Shown piece by piece: positions 23,323 through 31,842 of a stretch of 64,000 nucleotides of DNA; the stretch's first letter is position 1; each line of letters begins with the position of its first letter. The notes beneath the pieces were generated by a model. The model made no database searches, was not told the origin of the DNA, and was given only the letters and a program-made list of their open reading frames with translations. The stretch is from Desulforhabdus amnigena (lineage in GTDB: Bacteria > Desulfobacterota > Syntrophobacteria > Syntrophobacterales > Syntrophobacteraceae): contig NZ_BSDR01000001.1 in NCBI RefSeq assembly GCF_027925305.1, positions 1,639,001 through 1,703,000 on the forward strand, written 5' to 3'. The position numbers and the translations under genes were made by a program.

Positions 23323-24606
23323 TCAAGATCCGTCAACCTGCTCATGTTTTCCAAAAGTCTCTCTTTCCTTGAACCGTATCCTCACGGGAACTCCCAGTTC
23401 CTGCGCCAATTCCATTCCCAGATGGAAGGCAAGCTTTTCCATCTCCTTGATTTCATCGGAAAAGACTCTCTCATCCACCATGAGCCAGACCTCCAGGGAG
23501 TCCCTCCGATCCTGATGGCTTCTGATGAAACGGTACGCACCTGGAATGAAACCCAATGCACGCTCCAGCAGTCTCAAAATCTGCTGCCGATAAATCTTCA
23601 CTCCACGCACCAGAATCACCTCTTCCGACTGCGGAGCGAACCATTCCATTTTCTTGAGGGTCCTTCCACAGGGACACGCACCGGGGGTCAGGCGCACCAT
23701 GTCCCCCGTTCGGAACCTTATCAAGGGAAAGGCCCGGGTGGTCAATGTGGTGAGAACCAGTTCTCCCACTTCACCGTCCGGAAGGACATTTCCCGTCCCG
23801 GGATCGATCACTTCCGCCAGAAAATGATCTTCATTCACGTGAAGCCCCTGACGCTCTTCGCACTCAAAGGCCAAAGCGGGCCCTGGCACCTCGCTCAGCC
23901 CGTAGTGCACCCATGTTTTCACGTGAAGCTGCTCTTCAAGCCGAACCTGCAGATCGGAATCGGGCGCGTCCCCCACGAGGAGGAGCGTTTTCAGGGCCAG
24001 GGCATTGGGATTGAGATTGGCCTTGAACAGATGATGAATCCATTGAGTTGCGCCGGAAGCGCTTGTGAGAAGCACCGAGGTCCTGTAATCCCGCATGACC
24101 ATCAATTGCTTTTCAGGGGGAAGAATGGTGAGAGGAATCACGCTGGCCCCGATGGCTTCCGCTCCGTCCTTGTAATCCCGACCCCAATTGGCCAGACCCG
24201 AATCCAGATCGATTTGAAGGATATCGGAGGATGTCACCCCGGCGGCAGTGAGGGCTCGAGCCAGGATTTCCCTCCATACCAGGAGATCCTGCCTGGTGTA
24301 GCCGCTCACCGTCGGCTTCAGACCGGTTCCCCTCGCCGTGTGAATGCGCACCACATCACGCAGGGGCACGGCAAAAAGGCCATATGGATAATTATCACTG
24401 AAATGCTCGCGCTGGATGAAAGGGATGCGACAAAGATCCCGAAGATCCTCCACATCCGCCGGCCCTATTCCCTGCTTTTCAAAACGATTCCGATAGAAAG
24501 GCACATTTTTGAAAGCCCGGTTGAGTGTGCTCTGGAGCCGTTCCAATTGCTGCTGTCCCCGTTCCTCCACATGGAGACATTCTTCCTCTGGATTCCAAAT
24601 GGGCAT
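23323..24606 (-). CDS. Divergent phenylacetate-CoA ligase-like protein (PaaK2)
   Basis: 427 residues of the PaaK branch of acyl-adenylate enzymes. The C-terminal half is well conserved (HYGLSEVPGPALAFEC, VIDPGTGNVLPDGEVGELVLTTL, RFRTGDMVRL...CPCGRT, RGVKIY). The N-terminal ATP-binding signature is not: SSGTTGKPT of PaaK1 is ARGTGLKPT here (91-99), and the [10 protein letters not shown] and GGNTKRQ segments are replaced. It may have weak or different adenylating activity. It is last in the liv operon, 3 bases after livF. Confidence 0.8.
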   Translation of the reverse strand: MPIWNPEEECLHVEERGQQQLERLQSTLNRAFKNVPFYRNRFEKQGIGPADVEDLRDLCRIPFIQREHFSDNYPYGLFAVPLRDVVRIHTARGTGLKPTVSGYTRQDLLVWREILARALTAAGVTSSDILQIDLDSGLANWGRDYKDGAEAIGASVIPLTILPPEKQLMVMRDYRTSVLLTSASGATQWIHHLFKANLNPNALALKTLLLVGDAPDSDLQVRLEEQLHVKTWVHYGLSEVPGPALAFECEERQGLHVNEDHFLAEVIDPGTGNVLPDGEVGELVLTTLTTRAFPLIRFRTGDMVRLTPGACPCGRTLKKMEWFAPQSEEVILVRGVKIYRQQILRLLERALGFIPGAYRFIRSHQDRRDSLEVWLMVDERVFSDEIKEMEKLAFHLGMELAQELGVPVRIRFKERETFGKHEQVDGS

Positions 24607-24609
24607 TTC

Positions 24610-25353
24610 CTAGGCCCTCCCCTCACAAAATTCACGGTAGTCTTTCCCCAGATAGGCACGCTTGACATCCTGATCGGCCAGCAGGTCCACGGCGTTCCCC
24701 TCCAAAACGATGCGTCCATTTTCCAATACATAACCGCGATCGGCAATCCGCAGGGCCGCCTGAGCGTTTTGTTCCACGAGCAGAATCGTTATCCCTTCCT
24801 CTTTGAGCTGCAGGAGAGTGTCCAGGATGAGCCGGACAAGGAAGGGCGCCAACCCCATGGAGGGTTCATCCAGAAGGATGAGCCGCGGACGCGCCATGAG
24901 CGCCCGTCCGATGGCCAACATCTGCTGTTCGCCGCCGGAGAGTGTCCCCGCAGCCTGCCTGGACCGCTCTCTCAAAACGGGAAACAGGTCCAAGACCCGT
25001 TCCAGGTCTTCAAAAATACCCTGATGTTCCCGTTTGCGGTAACGCAGATATGCCCCCAGTTTCAAATTGTCGATGACACTGAGAGGAGGAAAGAGCATTC
25101 GCCCTTCAGGAACCAGGCTGATTCCCCGCTGTACCATTGCGGGCGGCTTCAACCCTTGAAGCGGTTCTTTTTCGAATTCGATTTCCCCTTCCCAGCGGGG
25201 AAGCAACCCACAGATGGTCTGCAGAAGGGTACTCTTGCCGGCGCCGTTGGCCCCGATCAGAGCGATGAGTTCCCCGGAACGCACCGACAGACTGACACCG
25301 TTGATAGCGCGAATCCGTCCGTAATAGCATTTCAGATTGCGGATACGAAGCAT
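24610..25353 (-). CDS. livF: Branched-chain-type amino-acid ABC transporter, ATP-binding protein LivF
   Basis: 247 residues. Walker A GANGAGKSTLLQ (about 34-45), LSGGEQQMLAIGRAL signature, Walker B LILLDEPSMGLAP and the H-loop region LVEQNAQAAL are all present. LivF is one of two ATPases powering the HAAT-family uptake system. It is encoded between livG and paaK2 on one transcript. Confidence 0.93.
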   Translation of the reverse strand: MLRIRNLKCYYGRIRAINGVSLSVRSGELIALIGANGAGKSTLLQTICGLLPRWEGEIEFEKEPLQGLKPPAMVQRGISLVPEGRMLFPPLSVIDNLKLGAYLRYRKREHQGIFEDLERVLDLFPVLRERSRQAAGTLSGGEQQMLAIGRALMARPRLILLDEPSMGLAPFLVRLILDTLLQLKEEGITILLVEQNAQAALRIADRGYVLENGRIVLEGNAVDLLADQDVKRAYLGKDYREFCEGRA

Positions 25354-25441
25354 GTGATCAACCTTCTATGGCTAGCTGTTCTGTCGGGAAAATCAATTGA
25401 TCGACTCAACGGTATTGCCTCCATATCGTGCAAGAACCGCA

Positions 25442-26236
25442 TCATTCGGCCCCACCCAGATACGCCTTGATGACCTCCTCGTTGGCCTGAATCTCCCTGG
25501 GAGTCCCTTCCGCCAGTTTTTTGCCTTGATGAAGCACAAGGATATAGTCCGAAATACCCATGGTGAGTCCCATGTCGTGTTCCACCAGAAGAAGTGTCAC
25601 CCCACGCTTTTTTATCTCCTGCAGAAGGTCTCCCAATTGATGAGTCTCCACGGGGTTCAGACCTGAAGCGGGTTCGTCTAAAAGCATGAGTCGCGGTTCG
25701 GCAGCCAAAGCGCGCCCAATTTCCAAAAAGCGCTGCCAGCCGAAGGGCAAATCCAGACTCCGCTGGTCGGCAACCTTTTCCAGGCCGACAAACTCCAGCA
25801 ATTCCATCGCCCGCTTCCGTGCAGCCTTTTCCTCTCTCAGCACGGACGGCCACCGGCACATGGCTCCCCAAAATCCACACCGGGTCCTCACATGCTGCCC
25901 TACCAGCACATTTTCCAAAACCGTCATGCTTCCAAACAGCTCTACATTCTGAAAGGTGCGTGCTATCCCGGCGGCTACCAGTTCATGCACTTTTCTGCCC
26001 TGAATTTCTTTCTCGCCGTAAAGGATGCGGCCCTCCTCCGGAGAATACGCTCCTGTGATGCTGTTAAAAAGCGTGGTCTTGCCGGCACCGTTGGGGCCGA
26101 TCACTGCATGGATGGTTTCGGGGAAGACTTCGAAAGAGACATTATGCAGAGCTTGAATCCCCCCGAAAGCCTTTCCTAGCCCGTCAACTCTGAGCAGAGG
26201 ATGAAGATTGGCGATACCTGTCTCGTGACCGCTCAT
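25442..26236 (-). CDS. livG: Branched-chain-type amino-acid ABC transporter, ATP-binding protein LivG
   Basis: 264 residues with Walker A GPNGAGKTTLFNSITGAY, the family insert GIARTFQNVELFGSMTVLENVL, a degenerate signature DLPFGWQRFLEIGRAL, Walker B LMLLDEPASGLNP and H-loop LLVEHDMGLTMGI. The C-terminus has the usual EIQANEEVIKAYLG. Its start overlaps the end of livM by 53 bases. It partners LivF. Confidence 0.93.
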   Translation of the reverse strand: MSGHETGIANLHPLLRVDGLGKAFGGIQALHNVSFEVFPETIHAVIGPNGAGKTTLFNSITGAYSPEEGRILYGEKEIQGRKVHELVAAGIARTFQNVELFGSMTVLENVLVGQHVRTRCGFWGAMCRWPSVLREEKAARKRAMELLEFVGLEKVADQRSLDLPFGWQRFLEIGRALAAEPRLMLLDEPASGLNPVETHQLGDLLQEIKKRGVTLLLVEHDMGLTMGISDYILVLHQGKKLAEGTPREIQANEEVIKAYLGGAE

Positions 26237-27140
26237 AAGAATCCAGTATTCCTCGTGTCAAACCCTGGGGTAAAAAAATCATGATCACCATCAGAATGAG
26301 CCCGTAGACAACCATTTCATAGTCCGTAAAGACGTGAAGCCATTCGGGAAGAAGCGTCAGGAGGGATGCCCCCAGCAGGGAACCCCAAATGCTTGCCATT
26401 CCACCAATCACTACCATGGTCACCATGCGGACGGAAACCAAAAAGTCGAAGGAGCCCGGACTGATAAAACTCACCAGATGTGCGTACAGAAAACCGGCCA
26501 ACCCGGCAAAGACGGCGCTCAATACAAACACCCAAATCTTGATGCGACTCGTGTCGATTCCCATGGCGGCCGCGGCATGCTCGCTGTCGTGTATGGCTCG
26601 AAGCGCTCTTCCCACGCGTGAATCCACGATGCGTTCACAAAGAATGAAGCACAAAAAGACCACTCCCCAAACGAGAAAAAAATATGCGCTTCCCGACATG
26701 AAGGAAAATGGCCCGAGGGTAAGGGGCGGAATCCCAACGAATCCGGAATCGCCTCCGGTCACCTGGCTCCATTTACGAAAGAGAATGTAAACGATCATTC
26801 CAAAGCCCATGGTGCCCATCCCAAGATAGTACCCGGAAAGCTTCAACATGGGCAGAGCGATCAGAAAAGCCACCAATGCCGTCATCAAAAGCACGGCCGG
26901 CAGAGCCAGCCAAGGCGGCCAGTTCCAGTGGGCCGTGAGAATCGCTGAACAGTAAGCGCCGAGCCCATAAAAGGCTGCGTGCCCCAATGAAATCTGTCCG
27001 GCATACCCCATGAGCATGTTGAGCCCAAGGGCAAGCAGGGTGTGGATGCCGATAAAGGTGAGAAGCTGCAGATGATAGGGATTGGAGATGCAAAACCCCG
27101 TTAGGACAATTACGGAAACAAACAATGCGTTTTTGATCAT
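26184..27140 (-). CDS. livM: Branched-chain-type amino-acid ABC transporter permease LivM
   Basis: 318 residues, about eight to ten hydrophobic segments, with the HAAT permease motif LMGYAGQISLGHAAFYGLGAY near 44-64 and the conserved GIDTSRIKIWVFVLSAVFAGLAGFLYAHLVSF block. It forms the membrane channel with LivH. The 170 bases before it contain no gene. Confidence 0.93.
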   Translation of the reverse strand: MIKNALFVSVIVLTGFCISNPYHLQLLTFIGIHTLLALGLNMLMGYAGQISLGHAAFYGLGAYCSAILTAHWNWPPWLALPAVLLMTALVAFLIALPMLKLSGYYLGMGTMGFGMIVYILFRKWSQVTGGDSGFVGIPPLTLGPFSFMSGSAYFFLVWGVVFLCFILCERIVDSRVGRALRAIHDSEHAAAAMGIDTSRIKIWVFVLSAVFAGLAGFLYAHLVSFISPGSFDFLVSVRMVTMVVIGGMASIWGSLLGASLLTLLPEWLHVFTDYEMVVYGLILMVIMIFLPQGLTRGILDSYERSRDRYRQSSSSAQS

Positions 27141-27310
27141 TGGATTCTTTCACAGGATCGGTCGAGGAAACGAAAATAAGCCGTCGCCACCCGGTTCGCC
27201 GTTGATCGAGACGTTTCACTTTGAAACCGGAAACTCAAATCAGGCACACGAATACTTCGTCGCACAGAAGTAGAGATACGGAACACTCCGATGATCCAGA
27301 TCCCCGCCCG

Positions 27311-28189
27311 TTAGAATCTTTGAACGGCTTTGGTCCCGAGGATTCCACTCGGCCTCACATAAAGGATGAGAAGCAACAAAACGAATGCGATGACATCTTT
27401 CAGGCCGGATGAAAAAAACCCCACGCCCAAGGCCTCCATGACTCCCAGCAGAACCCCTCCCAGCACCGCCCCCCAGGAACTTCCGAGCCCCCCGAGCATG
27501 GCGGCACAAAAGCCTTTGAGTCCCAGCATGGTGCCCATATCGTAGCTGCTCATGGTGATGGGGGTGATGAGGAGGCCGCCGATCCCTCCCAATGCGGCGC
27601 TCATGGCAAAAGCCAGCAGGACCATCCGTTCGCTGGGTATGCCGAGTATCCATGCAGCTTTCTTGCTTATGGCGCACGCGATCATGGCTTTCCCCGTAAG
27701 AGTCCGCCGATAAAAGAGCTGCAGCCCCGCCACGATGATCAGAACGATCCCCAGAATCCAGAGAGTCTGAGGCAAAAGCGTGGCGCCCGCCAATTCAAAG
27801 GGGGCATGATCCGTAAAGGAAGGCGCGCTGTGAGCATCCTTTCCCCATCCCAGCATCCCCACTCCCCGAAGGAAAATGGATGCCCCGATGGTGATGATCA
27901 CCAGCACGATGGGATGAGGTTTGCGCACACTGCGGATGGCCAGCCGTTCCAGGAGCAGCCCCACGGCAGAAACACCCACAACCGTGACCATGAAGGCGGC
28001 CATCAGGGGAAGCTCCAATCCTTTCCAGAGGGTAATCATGCTCAACGCTCCCAGCATGACAAACTCGCCGTGGGCGAAGTTGATCAGACCGGTGGTGTTG
28101 AAGAGCATGGAAAATCCCAGGGCGATGATGGCATAGATGGCCCCGTTCGTTATGCCCGAAAAAAAATACTGAAGAAGTTCCTGCATCAT
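27311..28189 (-). CDS. livH: Branched-chain-type amino-acid ABC transporter permease LivH
   Basis: 292 residues, multi-spanning. FSGITNGAIYAIIALGFSMLFNTTGLINFAHGEFVMLGA at the start and YDMGTMLGLKGFCAAMLGGLGSSWGAVLGGVLLG near the end are diagnostic of LivH permeases. It pairs with LivM. The gene order livK-livH-livM-livG-livF is the family norm. Confidence 0.93.
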   Translation of the reverse strand: MMQELLQYFFSGITNGAIYAIIALGFSMLFNTTGLINFAHGEFVMLGALSMITLWKGLELPLMAAFMVTVVGVSAVGLLLERLAIRSVRKPHPIVLVIITIGASIFLRGVGMLGWGKDAHSAPSFTDHAPFELAGATLLPQTLWILGIVLIIVAGLQLFYRRTLTGKAMIACAISKKAAWILGIPSERMVLLAFAMSAALGGIGGLLITPITMSSYDMGTMLGLKGFCAAMLGGLGSSWGAVLGGVLLGVMEALGVGFFSSGLKDVIAFVLLLLILYVRPSGILGTKAVQRF

Positions 28190-28361
28190 TCGAGTTTCAA
28201 TCAGACGTTATGAAATGATTTCGAAATCGGTCCGGCGAACCGCCTGCTCGCCGGCACTTCTTACTTTGGACGTTTATCGTTTATAAAGATACCTCCATCT
28301 CAGGAAATCCCCCCTTGAGGGGGGGCAAAGGGGGGATACCTTTCAAAATGAGAATTGCCCG

Positions 28362-29528
28362 CTACTCATTCAAAAGTTTCCAGGTACCCTTCTCGATCTT
28401 GACCATCACAAAAGCATCGCTTCCCAGTCCATTGTGGTCTTGAGCCGTAAAATTAAAGACGCCTGTCACACCGATTTTTCCGGTGATTTTTTCCAGCGCA
28501 TCGCGAATCTTCTGTTTGTCTCCTTCGGTACCCTTGAGAGCATCGGCCAGCAAATGCATCGCATCATAAGCATACCCCCCAAAACCGGAGACAGGCATTT
28601 CAAAACGCTTTTCAAAGGTATTGATGTAATCCAAAAGAACCGCTTTTTGAGGGTCCGTTTCAGGGAGCTGCTGCGCTACAAGGATCTTACCTGTCGGAAG
28701 CAAAATTCCGTCTGCGGCATCACCGGCCAGTTCTATGAATTTCGGGGAAGCCACACCATGACTCTGATAAAGGGGCATGTTGAGGTTCATCTGCCTGGCA
28801 TTCTTGGCCACAACGGCAGGGCCGGGATTGGTCCCCCAGCAGATGACGGCATCAGGCTGCGCGCTGCGCAGCTTGGTCAACTGAGGGGTCATGTCCGTAT
28901 CTTTGGCCCCGAAGCTTTCCTGCTGAACGATCTCAAGCCCAAACTTGGGGGCCTGAGCGAGCAACTGTTCCTTGCCGCTTTCACCGAACGCGTTTTCCAC
29001 GGTAATGATTCCTACTTTCTTGATACCGTGTTTTTTCATGTGTTCATAGATGGCGGCCACAGCCAAAACGTCACTTTGAGCCGTCTTGAACACCCAGGGT
29101 TTCACGGGTTCGGTGATCTTGATTCCTGCAGCACAGCTGATGAGGGGCACCTGGGATTTTTCGACGATGGGAACGACGGCCAGAGTGGTGGGTGTGAGAC
29201 TCGGACCGATGATTGCCAGAACATTATCTTTGCTGATGAGCTTGTTTACAGCGAGCACCGCTTTGCCCGGATCCCCTTCTGTGTCGTAGATGACCGCTTC
29301 CAGCATATGGCCATCGATGCCCCCTTCGGCATTGATTTTATCGACGACCATTTCAAGGCTTTTCTTCTCCGGATCACCGAGAAAGGAGCTTGGACCCGTG
29401 ATCGAAAAAATCCCACCGATCTTATAAACGTCTTTGGACCAGCCCACTGCAGGGTAAAGTCCCAACAAGATGAGCATTCCGATTGCCAAGGTCTTCTTCA
29501 AAACGGATCCCTTACGTTCCATGACCAT
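28362..29528 (-). CDS. livK: Periplasmic substrate-binding protein LivK-like
   Basis: 388 residues. It has a signal peptide (LAIGMLILLGLYPAVGWS) and a type I periplasmic-binding fold of the ANF-receptor family (YKIGGIFSITGPSSFLGDPEKKSLEMVVDKINAEGGIDGH..., DNVLAIIGPSLTPTTLAV, RLDQ-less ligand cleft). It captures the ligand for LivHMGF. Family members bind branched-chain or aromatic amino acids, aromatic acids or amides; the sequence alone does not say which. Linkage to PaaK, ACT and the Phe leader points to an aromatic ligand. A G/C-rich palindromic stretch (28310-28342) lies after it. Confidence 0.88.
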   Translation of the reverse strand: MVMERKGSVLKKTLAIGMLILLGLYPAVGWSKDVYKIGGIFSITGPSSFLGDPEKKSLEMVVDKINAEGGIDGHMLEAVIYDTEGDPGKAVLAVNKLISKDNVLAIIGPSLTPTTLAVVPIVEKSQVPLISCAAGIKITEPVKPWVFKTAQSDVLAVAAIYEHMKKHGIKKVGIITVENAFGESGKEQLLAQAPKFGLEIVQQESFGAKDTDMTPQLTKLRSAQPDAVICWGTNPGPAVVAKNARQMNLNMPLYQSHGVASPKFIELAGDAADGILLPTGKILVAQQLPETDPQKAVLLDYINTFEKRFEMPVSGFGGYAYDAMHLLADALKGTEGDKQKIRDALEKITGKIGVTGVFNFTAQDHNGLGSDAFVMVKIEKGTWKLLNE

Positions 29529-29698: not shown

Positions 29699-30130
29699 TT
29701 ACATGCCGTACAGGGTCTTTCCCTCGATCACCTTGATTCCGTTTTCCGTCAAAACCTTTACAGCCTCGTCAAGGTTGTCGAACCGGAAGATGATGACAGC
29801 GTTGTTGCCGCTCTGTTGAACAAAGGCATACATGTACTCCACATTGACGTTGGCCTTGTGCAGGACCTCCAGAATCCTGTGCAATCCGCCCGGATGGTCC
29901 CCGACTTCGACGGCCACCACATCCGTTTTGCCAACGGTGAATCCGTGCTGTTTCAGAGCCTCTTTCGCCTTGTCATTGTTATTGACGATCAAACGCAGGA
30001 TGCCAAAATCGGATGTGTCGGCAAGCGACAGGGCTCTGATGTTGATTTGTGCTTCCGCCAGAATTCGGGTGACCTCTGAGAGTCGTCCCGCTTTGTTCTC
30101 CAAAAACACAGAAATTTGTTCCACTCGCAT
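29699..30130 (-). CDS. Tandem ACT-domain protein
   Basis: 143 residues made of two ACT domains (about 1-66 and 68-140): [32 protein letters not shown] and [36 protein letters not shown] domains bind amino acids and regulate metabolism. Stand-alone ACT genes next to paaK are common in anaerobes with indolepyruvate oxidoreductase pathways. The gene follows paaK1 by 25 bases. It may sense Phe or another aromatic amino acid in the same operon that the Phe leader controls. Confidence 0.88.
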
Positions 30131-30155: not shown

Positions 30156-31457
30156 CTAAATCTTGCGATTGTCTATGACACGTTGGGCTTTCCCCTCGCT
30201 TCGAGCAATACTCTTCGGTTCCACAAGCTTCACTTTGGCGGAAACTCCGAGATATTCCTTGATATTTTTGGAAATTTTCTTTTCCAGGACCTGCAAGACA
30301 CGAACTTCATCGGAGAAGGCATCTTCCCCCACTTCCACCATCACCGTGAGGAGATCCAGATTGTCTTCACGGTCCACGACCAACTGATAATGGGGTTCGA
30401 CGCCCTCAATTTCCATGAGTACGCTCTCGATCTGGGAGGGGAACACATTGACGCCGCGAATGATGAGCATATCATCGGTCCGGCCCGTCACGCGGTTCAT
30501 TCGAACATGGGATCTGCCGCAAATGCAGGGTTCGGGATTGAGAGAACTGATATCGCGTGTCCGATACCGAATGACGGGGAAAGCTTCTTTGGTGATGGAA
30601 GTGAAAACGAGCTCTCCTTTCTCGCCGTACGGGAGGGTTTCGCCCGTCTCCGGATGGATCACTTCAGCAATGAAATGATCTTCCGCAATATGAAGCCCCT
30701 TCTTGGCTTCGGCACATTCCACGGCAACTCCAGGGCCGAGCACCTCGCTCAGTCCATAGATATCCACTGCACTGAGGTGAAGTTTACGCTCTATTTCCTG
30801 GCGCATTTCTTCCGACCAGGGTTCGGCGCCAAAGATTCCCGCCTTGAACCTGAGATCTTTGAAATCCACCCCCACTTCACCGGCGACTTCAGCCAGATGC
30901 AGGGCGTAGGAAGGCGTGCAGGTGAGAATGGTCGGGCCGAAATCCTTCATGATGAGGATCTGCCGCTTGGTATTTCCTCCTGAAATGGGAATGACCGAAG
31001 CTCCCAGCCGTTCCGCCCCATAATGAACGCCAAGCCCCCCCGTGAAAAGTCCATATCCATAGGCATTGTGAATGATATCTCCGCGCGAAGCGCCGGCGGC
31101 GGCAAGAGCCCGCGCCATCAGTTCAGACCAGGTGCTGATATCCCGTGCTGTATATCCCACTACCGTCGGCTTGCCCGTAGTGCCTGAAGATGCGTGGATA
31201 CGGACGACATTATCCATGGGCACGGCAAACATTCCAAATGGATAGTTGTCTCTCAAATCCTGTTTGTAGGTGAACGGGAGGCGTTGGAGATCATTCAGGG
31301 TCTTGATGTCCGAGGGGGTCACTCCCGCTTCCTGAAACTTCTTTCTGTAGAAGGGAACGGTGGCGTAGACCCGTTCTATCGTTGCCTGCAGGCGGCGCAA
31401 TTGAATCGCTTCGAGAGCTTCTCGAGGTAACGTCTCAAATTCGATATTATAAATCAT
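30156..31457 (-). CDS. paaK: Phenylacetate-CoA ligase
   Basis: 433 residues, full length. It activates phenylacetate or a related aryl acid with ATP and CoA. The adenylate-forming motif [16 protein letters not shown] (88-103), [50 protein letters not shown] and [11 protein letters not shown] are all canonical. It is the first structural gene after the Phe-rich leader and two hairpins. In anaerobes it can serve salvage of aryl acids to aryl-CoA for reductive carboxylation to aryl pyruvates, as well as degradation. Confidence 0.92.
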
Positions 31458-31501: not shown

Positions 31502-31535
31502 AAAAAAAGGCCGATGGATCCCGGAATCCACGGCC
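31502..31535 (-). terminator. Intrinsic terminator 2 of the Phe leader
   Basis: On the minus strand GGCCGTGGA...TCCATCGGCC (31535-31509; 9 bp plus one bulge) is followed by TTTTTTT (31508-31502). It sits 44 bases before the paaK1 start, in the leader, not at a gene end, so it can only regulate entry into paaK1. Confidence 0.75.
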
Positions 31536-31585
31536 TCAAAAACAAAAAACCCATGGGTCCCGCATTCTTGCGCCCACCCATGGTT
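31536..31585 (-). terminator. Intrinsic terminator 1 of the Phe leader
   Basis: On the minus strand AACCATGGGT (31585-31576) pairs with ACCCATGGGTT (31558-31548) with one bulge; CGCA/TGCG extends the stem inside. A run TTTTTTGTTTTT follows. It lies 26 bases after the leader peptide stop codon, as in amino-acid attenuators. Confidence 0.75.
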
Positions 31586-31611
31586 TTGGTCAATGATAGG
31601 TCTGGTTCAGC

Positions 31612-31698
31612 CTACTTTGCCCCCCCACAGGCAGGCCTCCCAAAAAAGAAGCCCCCAAAAAATTGAGAGCGGCTAAAGCGGAAAAACCAGTCAAACAT
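31612..31698 (-). CDS. Phenylalanine-rich leader peptide of an attenuator
   Basis: 28 codons and a TAG stop. Nine of the 28 residues are Phe (positions 2, 5, 6, 8, 13, 14, 17, 18, 19), mostly TTT, with one Trp at 4; it begins MFDWFFRFSRSQFF. The ATG follows a GAGG ribosome-binding site by 8 bases. Two terminator hairpins follow before paaK1. By analogy with pheA/pheST leaders, ribosome stalling at Phe codons when charged tRNA-Phe is low would prevent termination and open the operon. The leader was read directly from the sequence; the mechanism is inferred. Confidence 0.8.
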   Translation of the reverse strand: MFDWFFRFSRSQFFGGFFFGRPACGGAK

Positions 31699-31842
31699 CT
31701 CTTTTACCTCTCAAAAATATATGCAGTGTGAATCCTGGATAGCTAATTTGATAAAGCCTGTCAAGAAAAAATCCGAAGTCTGAAACTTTTGCAGAGCCAC
31801 CGAACCTAAAAAAACCGGAGCCCGCTTTCGAGCATTCCAAGC

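Follow-up and report, generated by a model that had tools for sequence, protein, structure and literature searches.

A conserved and very probable phenylalanine-codon attenuator with paired terminators precedes a phenylacetate-CoA ligase operon in Desulforhabdus amnigena and may belong to a family of relay attenuators

Genes of the paaK family are usually assigned to degradation. In Desulforhabdus amnigena, an operon that opens with such a gene (paaK1) stands behind a short leader rich in phenylalanine codons and two intrinsic terminators, which raises the question of why these genes should be switched by an RNA whose codons indicate that phenylalanine is wanted. The window, meaning the whole 64-kb stretch of DNA analysed, is part of a genome assembled as one contig of 4.54 Mb, and the features of the locus are listed in Table 1. 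The paaK1 product scores 634.5 bits against TIGR02155, slightly below the cut-off of 646.3, and the paaK2 product scores 29.2 bits against PF00501, slightly below the cut-off of 29.9. The order of the operon is observed in relatives as well. The ACT gene adjoins paaK1 in 13 of 14 extended paaK1 loci (L173-L185 and L192), the liv genes come next in 11 of these, and 8 have paaK2 thereafter, its position being retained in several relatives; some of these loci end at the limit of the fetched stretch. At L192, the search used finds neither ACT nor liv genes in the 9 kb 3' of paaK1. No oxidoreductase gene is seen within the phenylalanine-leader operon.

Table 1. Features of the leader and operon in the window (transcription start not measured)
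Feature	Position	Strand	Details
Promoter	31736..31764	minus	TTGACA recurs in relatives
Leader ribosome-binding site GAGAGG	31707..31712	minus	from sequence
Leader peptide ORF, ends TAG	31612..31698	minus	28 codons, nine Phe; from sequence and relatives
Segment 2, antiterminator 5' arm	31625..31636	minus	GCCTGCCTGTGG, within last leader codons
Short hairpin GCCTGC/GTAGGC	31610..31636	minus	spans leader stop codon
Terminator 1	31549..31585	minus	segment 3 (31583-31572) with segment 4 (31561-31551), then U-rich stretch
Proposed second antiterminator	31523..31561	minus	segment 4 (31561-31551) with segment 5 (31533-31523)
Terminator 2	31502..31535	minus	segment 5 (5' arm, starting at 31535) pairs with segment 6; seven U follow (31508-31502)
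paaK1, phenylacetate-CoA ligase family	30156..31457	minus	433 aa; TIGR02155, PF14535, PF00501
ACT-domain-pair protein	29699..30130	minus	143 aa; PF19571
livK, livH, livM, livG, livF, branched-chain-type ABC uptake	24610..29528	minus	PF13458, PF02653 x2, PF00005 x2
paaK2, second ligase-like gene	23323..24606	minus	427 aa; PF14535 over cut-off

An earlier note on this DNA had placed a phenylalanine-rich ORF, a ribosome-binding site and two hairpins before paaK1, and all of them are present as placed on the minus strand. The ORF (31698..31612) translates as MFDWFFRFSRSQFFGGFFFGRPACGGAK, with F at nine of its 28 residues, and lies about 155 nt upstream of paaK1 with both hairpins in between. The purine-rich GAGAGG lies 8 nt 5' of the leader ATG. 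The promoter consists of a -35 element TTGACA (31764-31759), a 17-nt spacer and a -10 element TATCCA (31741-31736). Neither terminator hairpin is flagged by a simple promoter/terminator scan of the window; both are recognised from the sequence and from folding, and among 200 dinucleotide shuffles 199 fold less well than the entire leader (z -3.1). When the 385-nt intergenic stretch is shuffled by dinucleotides, 176 of 2000 shuffles contain an ORF of 10-60 aa that has nine or more Phe codons, and in 5 of 2000 such an ORF also reaches a Phe content of at least 30%. Taken by itself, the ORF is therefore too weak to support the claim, and conservation decides.

A protein search across 40 genomes gives a match in all 40, and 30 loci, including that of the window, were fetched for comparison of their upstream regions, the check that the earlier note had proposed. 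A Phe-rich leader is observed 5' of paaK1 at 27 of the 30 loci with its Phe codons and hairpins kept, which upholds the earlier assignment of paaK1-ACT-liv as the target; no such leader is found before paaK1 at the other three (L026, L034 and L035). Two of the leaders (L025 and L032) have no terminator 2 and are omitted from the model alignment, which comprises the other 25, and in the leader of L013 the Tyr count equals the Phe count. Deviations from the conserved GG-FFF codons number 3, 9 and 22 at codon positions 1, 2 and 3, and this preponderance of third-position changes is the pattern of a translated frame. The promoter element is likewise conserved: 25 of the 27 relatives have TTGACA no more than 110 nt 5' of the leader start, compared with a mean of 0.7 in shuffled sequence.

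In a wider set of 80 named paaK1 relatives, a covariance model built from the 25 aligned leaders finds a coding-strand match at E 0.001 in 42 and none before paaK1 in the remaining 38. Two neighbouring features were tried as markers and dropped: the ACT gene follows paaK1 in 41 of the 42 loci with a leader and in 36 of the 38 without one, and a peptide pattern tried as a sign of degradation loci, which is presumably that of an enoyl-CoA-hydratase-like family, occurs in 19 of the 42 and 25 of the 38. Three loci (L254, L231 and L276) have hairpins 5' of paaK without a leader ORF, the second hairpin standing alone in two, and look like stages of leader decay. Among 19 loci that were read, readable Phe or Phe/Tyr leaders are found at four further paaK1 loci outside the class (L154, L160, L168 and L170, the last with a Tyr/Phe frame as in L253), and at one paaK1 locus (L167) the leader has been lost. 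The Phe leaders of families f5 and f6 lie one gene upstream of paaK1 where followed; of two representatives, one has a TPR protein as the product of this first gene and the other a TPR/YidD-like protein. At L098 (G040:C269, family f6), the product of the gene directly 3' of the Phe leader is a TPR protein that carries a YidD-like domain.

The RNA segments of the leader form two alternative helices that share segment 3. The 2:3 antiterminator is a 12-bp helix (31636-31625 with 31583-31572) in which 98.0% of cells are paired across 25 sequences, compared with 32.7-48.3% when slid, and 12 cells have changed on both sides compared with 4.1 in shuffled alignments. In an alignment of 55 sequences, which uses the correct L092 coordinates, these values are 96.7% paired and 43 both-side cells compared with 11.6. 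The competing 3:4 helix (hairpin 1) has 95.7% of cells paired in the same 55 sequences and carries compensatory changes, with 10 both-side cells compared with 2.7. Both hairpins are present in 123 of 124 folded leaders, and the duplex tests were run on these 123, L145 being excluded since its two hairpins were not found. When partners are swapped among leaders, the 2:3 duplex weakens from -20.1 kcal/mol at its own locus to -15.7 kcal/mol (0/2000 permutations), and 3:4 likewise gives 0/2000. The shuffle and swap controls leave shared ancestry in place. Covariation in both helices through the common segment 3 identifies a mutually exclusive antiterminator and terminator.

These observations, the conserved Phe codons and hairpins together with covarying 2:3 and 3:4, bear out the form of a pheA-type attenuator that had been suggested for this locus, and the leader is judged with high confidence to be a phenylalanine attenuator, there being no expression or termination data and the stalling response being inferred. 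Transcription would begin just 5' of the leader, and the attenuator would govern paaK1-ACT-livKHMGF-paaK2. When Phe-tRNA is plentiful, the ribosome is predicted to reach the stop codon and mask segment 2 at the end of the ORF, so that the 3:4 and 5:6 hairpins could form and transcription would terminate. When Phe-tRNA is short, the ribosome would stall on the Phe codons 5' of segment 2, allowing 2:3 to pair and leaving segment 4 free. The predicted sign, expression when charged tRNA-Phe is scarce, had also been put forward earlier and survives the conservation of the Phe codons and hairpins; no response has been measured. The short GCCTGC/GTAGGC hairpin, whose pairs are retained in most of the 25 rows and broken in several, is possibly a pause or protector hairpin, a role that is inferred.

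The leader ends in two terminators. Neither is likely to be redundant, since hairpin 1 has a 3' arm that is able to pair with the 5' arm of hairpin 2. With a mean of -20.8 kcal/mol in 123 leaders, terminator 2 is strong, and left unrelieved it would largely cancel the switch. In the inferred relay, a free segment 4 would pair with segment 5 while segment 6 has yet to be transcribed, terminator 2 would fail and the operon would be read. The 4:5 pairing has a mismatch in the window sequence. The two segments are complementary over at least 8 bp in 118 of 123 leaders, and in 108 of 123 their duplex reaches -12 kcal/mol or better, compared with 13.8% when segment 4 is shuffled. Partner swapping over the 123 leaders favours the own partner for 4:5 (-17.4 compared with -16.3; 0/2000), and the same test gives no own-partner excess for 2:5 or 3:6. 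Across 55 sequences, 88.4% of 4:5 cells are paired and 23 are changed on both sides compared with 8.1 in shuffles. Four leaders (L244, L246, L247 and L252) combine a C-to-U change in segment 4 with a G-to-A change in segment 5, while the hairpin-1 pair becomes G-U; L011 has a similar 4:5 change one position off, and L251 has a segment-4 change without a segment-5 partner.

This step was also followed by folding 28 leaders with a masked ribosome. With the ribosome stalled and segment 6 not yet made, 2:3 forms 9.8 bp and 4:5 forms 9.1 bp; with the ribosome at the stop codon, 3:4 forms 11.2 bp and 4:5 only 1.9 bp. In the full-length RNA at equilibrium, 5:6 exceeds 4:5 even with a stalled ribosome (11.2 vs 2.7 bp). 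The relay thus forms before segment 6 exists but fails at equilibrium, and it would have to act during transcription. The proposal that 4:5 opens terminator 2 is evenly poised on the present evidence.

The rival arrangement is a classical attenuator that works through terminator 1 only and has terminator 2 as a constant brake that lowers expression in all states. Many leaders have a U-rich stretch that belongs to terminator 1 itself, and for 4:5 there is no covariation excess in 25 sequences, no partner excess within the 28 Phe leaders (375/2000) and no excess within genomes (Wilcoxon p 0.71). A constant brake as strong as terminator 2, however, is the arrangement in which the switch would be largely cancelled, and it is also at odds with the near-universal 4:5 complementarity and the both-side changes among 55 sequences. 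It remains a serious contender, if one that falls somewhat short of being preferred.

The covariance model also recovers related leaders in front of other operons. Across the class, 51 of 55 genomes have a match at E 0.01, and across the phylum 122 of 395 have one at E 0.001, with all leader kinds pooled. The 107 class-level hits were examined and 105 were grouped by downstream gene; the codon table omits L072 and L153, for which the downstream gene is unresolved. The choice of leader for this table favoured aromatic peptides generally and no single residue. Among the leaders of 28 paaK1 loci, F is dominant in 27 and the mean F/Y/W counts are 7.4/0.8/0.6. Leaders of liv-paaK-iorAB operons in families f1 and f2 are instead Tyr-dominated in 18 of 18 (0.9/5.0/0.1). 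The trpB2 leaders are W-dominated in 6 of 6 (0.8/0.5/3.5), all 11 trpE leaders contain WW, with W dominant in 8 (0.8/2.5/3.7), and the one tyrA leader is of the Y type (1/1). The 20 DAHP synthase leaders (1.9/1.4/3.5) comprise 15 of Trp type and five of Tyr/Phe type. In operons of known function, the leader codons match the operon's own end product. The exception in the liv-paaK group is family f3, where the leaders carry Phe rather than Tyr codons in 4 of 4 (L101, L111, L128 and L144) and iorAB is not found in the three loci extended (L189-L191); this Phe leader possibly marks a switch of substrate or of role.

The window genome itself also contains sister leaders. A Tyr-rich leader with paired terminators precedes livKHMGF-paaK-iorA-iorB (L075, G000:C1:3616300-3616152, minus strand), and a Tyr/Cys leader with paired terminators precedes a prephenate dehydrogenase gene (L078, G000:C1:2648081-2647910, minus). 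Mixed Tyr/Phe leaders stand before a DHQ synthase II-pheA-aro operon (L077, G000:C1:3337825-3337983, plus) and before an AroG-type DAHP synthase gene (L076, G000:C1:403983-403862, minus). The automatic choice of frame missed the Tyr/Phe ORF of L077, and the codon-table row for its operon is unreliable; at L200, the automatically picked peptide is not the leader. The phenylalanine attenuator likely belongs to a wider set in the phylum, in which codon-specific attenuators for aromatic amino acids have paired terminators. Separately, Phe/Tyr leaders with paired terminators are seen at L158, L159 and L172 before a gene whose product starts MVGKRIRMERI or MIGKRIRLERI, which is probably an ADH-synthase-like first aromatic enzyme.

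Since the control operons (trpE, trpB2, tyrA and DAHP synthases) carry the codons of their own end products and the sister operon liv-paaK-iorAB has a Tyr attenuator, paaK1-ACT-liv is read as an operon for phenylalanine supply, and because of that reading the conflict with its degradation annotation is better resolved. Leaving the relay aside, a phenylalanine attenuator on a phenylalanine-supply operon is held with considerable confidence, and an anabolic or salvage role of paaK1-ACT-liv for phenylalanine with somewhat less, as the likelier reading of these genes. By the same codon reading, liv-paaK-iorAB would be wanted when tyrosine is short and paaK1-ACT-liv when phenylalanine is short. The Liv system would import an aryl acid or phenylalanine, PaaK1 would activate phenylacetate, and reductive carboxylation to phenylpyruvate may be carried out by an indolepyruvate-type oxidoreductase, for example that of the Tyr-attenuated sister operon. 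A phenylacetate-CoA ligase and an oxidoreductase of this type could together convert aryl acetates to aryl pyruvates. The route from phenylacetate to phenylalanine by reductive carboxylation is favoured, its direction being inferred without metabolic data.

The genome has two genes for the alpha subunit of indolepyruvate-type ferredoxin oxidoreductase above the TIGR03336 cut-off, one of which sits in the Tyr-leader operon. The genes iorA and iorB also occur with liv genes and paaK in another operon (L197, G000:C1:97000-109000), for which, in contrast to the Tyr-leader operon, the scan used shows no short aromatic ORF. Because this genome also encodes prephenate dehydratase and with it the de novo route to phenylalanine, the aryl-acid route would be a supplement and not needed for growth. 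Methanococcus maripaludis is reported to make aromatic amino acids from aryl acids by way of indolepyruvate oxidoreductase (PMC4162585, PMC3462420), which is the likeness to the carboxylating step proposed here. The present case differs in being bacterial, in having Liv genes and aryl-CoA ligases, and in being split between Phe- and Tyr-attenuated operons, with neither activity nor direction shown.

A phenylalanine attenuator could also serve uptake or salvage alone, with Liv importing phenylalanine or a peptide-derived aryl compound, the ligases in a side role and no reductive synthesis. Five of the eight operon genes encode the Liv-type transporter, and the leader codons tell only that phenylalanine is wanted. 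Transport alone, however, leaves unexplained why paaK1 is the first gene and so regularly linked to ACT, and why paaK lies beside iorAB under a Tyr leader; pure uptake is accordingly thought unlikely, without being dismissed. Far less probable is an operon for phenylalanine or phenylacetate breakdown behind a chance U-rich ORF before tandem terminators, which could appeal to the established assignment of paaK and to the shuffles that yield a nine-Phe ORF but is largely contradicted by the conservation of the frame, codons, promoter element and covarying helices and by sister leaders in which Trp or Tyr replaces Phe. Least tenable is another RNA regulator without a leader peptide, such as a T-box or riboswitch. 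A leader that is structured and conserved and has terminators would fit it too, but the ORF keeps its frame in relatives, no Rfam family reaches its gathering threshold anywhere in the 64-kb window, and the leader position has sub-threshold hits only, with no leader family (such as Phe_leader) among the matches up to E 10.

The phenylalanine attenuator read here resembles known systems in part. The enterobacterial pheA and pheST attenuators also have a short Phe-codon-rich ORF followed by an exclusive antiterminator and terminator before the operon. The present leader differs from them in its target (phenylacetate-CoA ligase-ACT-Liv), in having two terminators in series, in an antiterminator arm placed within the final ORF codons, and in matching no Rfam family. 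The rimP-leader has two tandem terminators and a potential antiterminator 5' of the gene (Naville and Gautheret 2010, PMC2965389) and is similar in that respect; it differs in having no amino-acid leader peptide, and a relay between the terminators is not described in the passages available. The three-hairpin attenuator of Corynebacterium ilvBNC (PMC11857589), as far as the accessible part of that paper describes it, shares the leader peptide and the chain of antiantiterminator, antiterminator and terminator, and differs in its single terminator, branched-chain amino acids and phylum. The open-licence PMC literature, of which only parts were available, yielded no attenuator described for paaK or indolepyruvate oxidoreductase operons and no relay terminators in amino acid leaders, and this is weak evidence of absence. 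A term search of a delta-proteobacterial regulon paper (PMC545781) returned no passage on leader peptides or aromatic amino acids. The attenuator is judged to be real and its target new, and the architecture is possibly new.

Taken together, a Desulfobacterota family of relay attenuators is proposed tentatively, at slightly less than even confidence for the whole. In such a family, the stalling of a single ribosome at Phe, Tyr or Trp codons would open two terminators one after the other, 2:3 and 4:5 replacing 3:4 and 5:6, and the codons would name the end product, marking paaK1-ACT-liv and liv-paaK-iorAB as operons for phenylalanine and tyrosine synthesis from aryl acetates. Leader codons in this sense are a substrate label that goes beyond protein homology. 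For aryl-CoA ligases, indolepyruvate oxidoreductases and Liv systems, breakdown and synthesis are hard to assign by sequence, and the RNA switch names the amino acid that is wanted. If the relay is true, one translation event would control two terminators, an added way of regulation. A second, reductive route to phenylalanine and tyrosine in sulfate reducers and syntrophs becomes directly testable.
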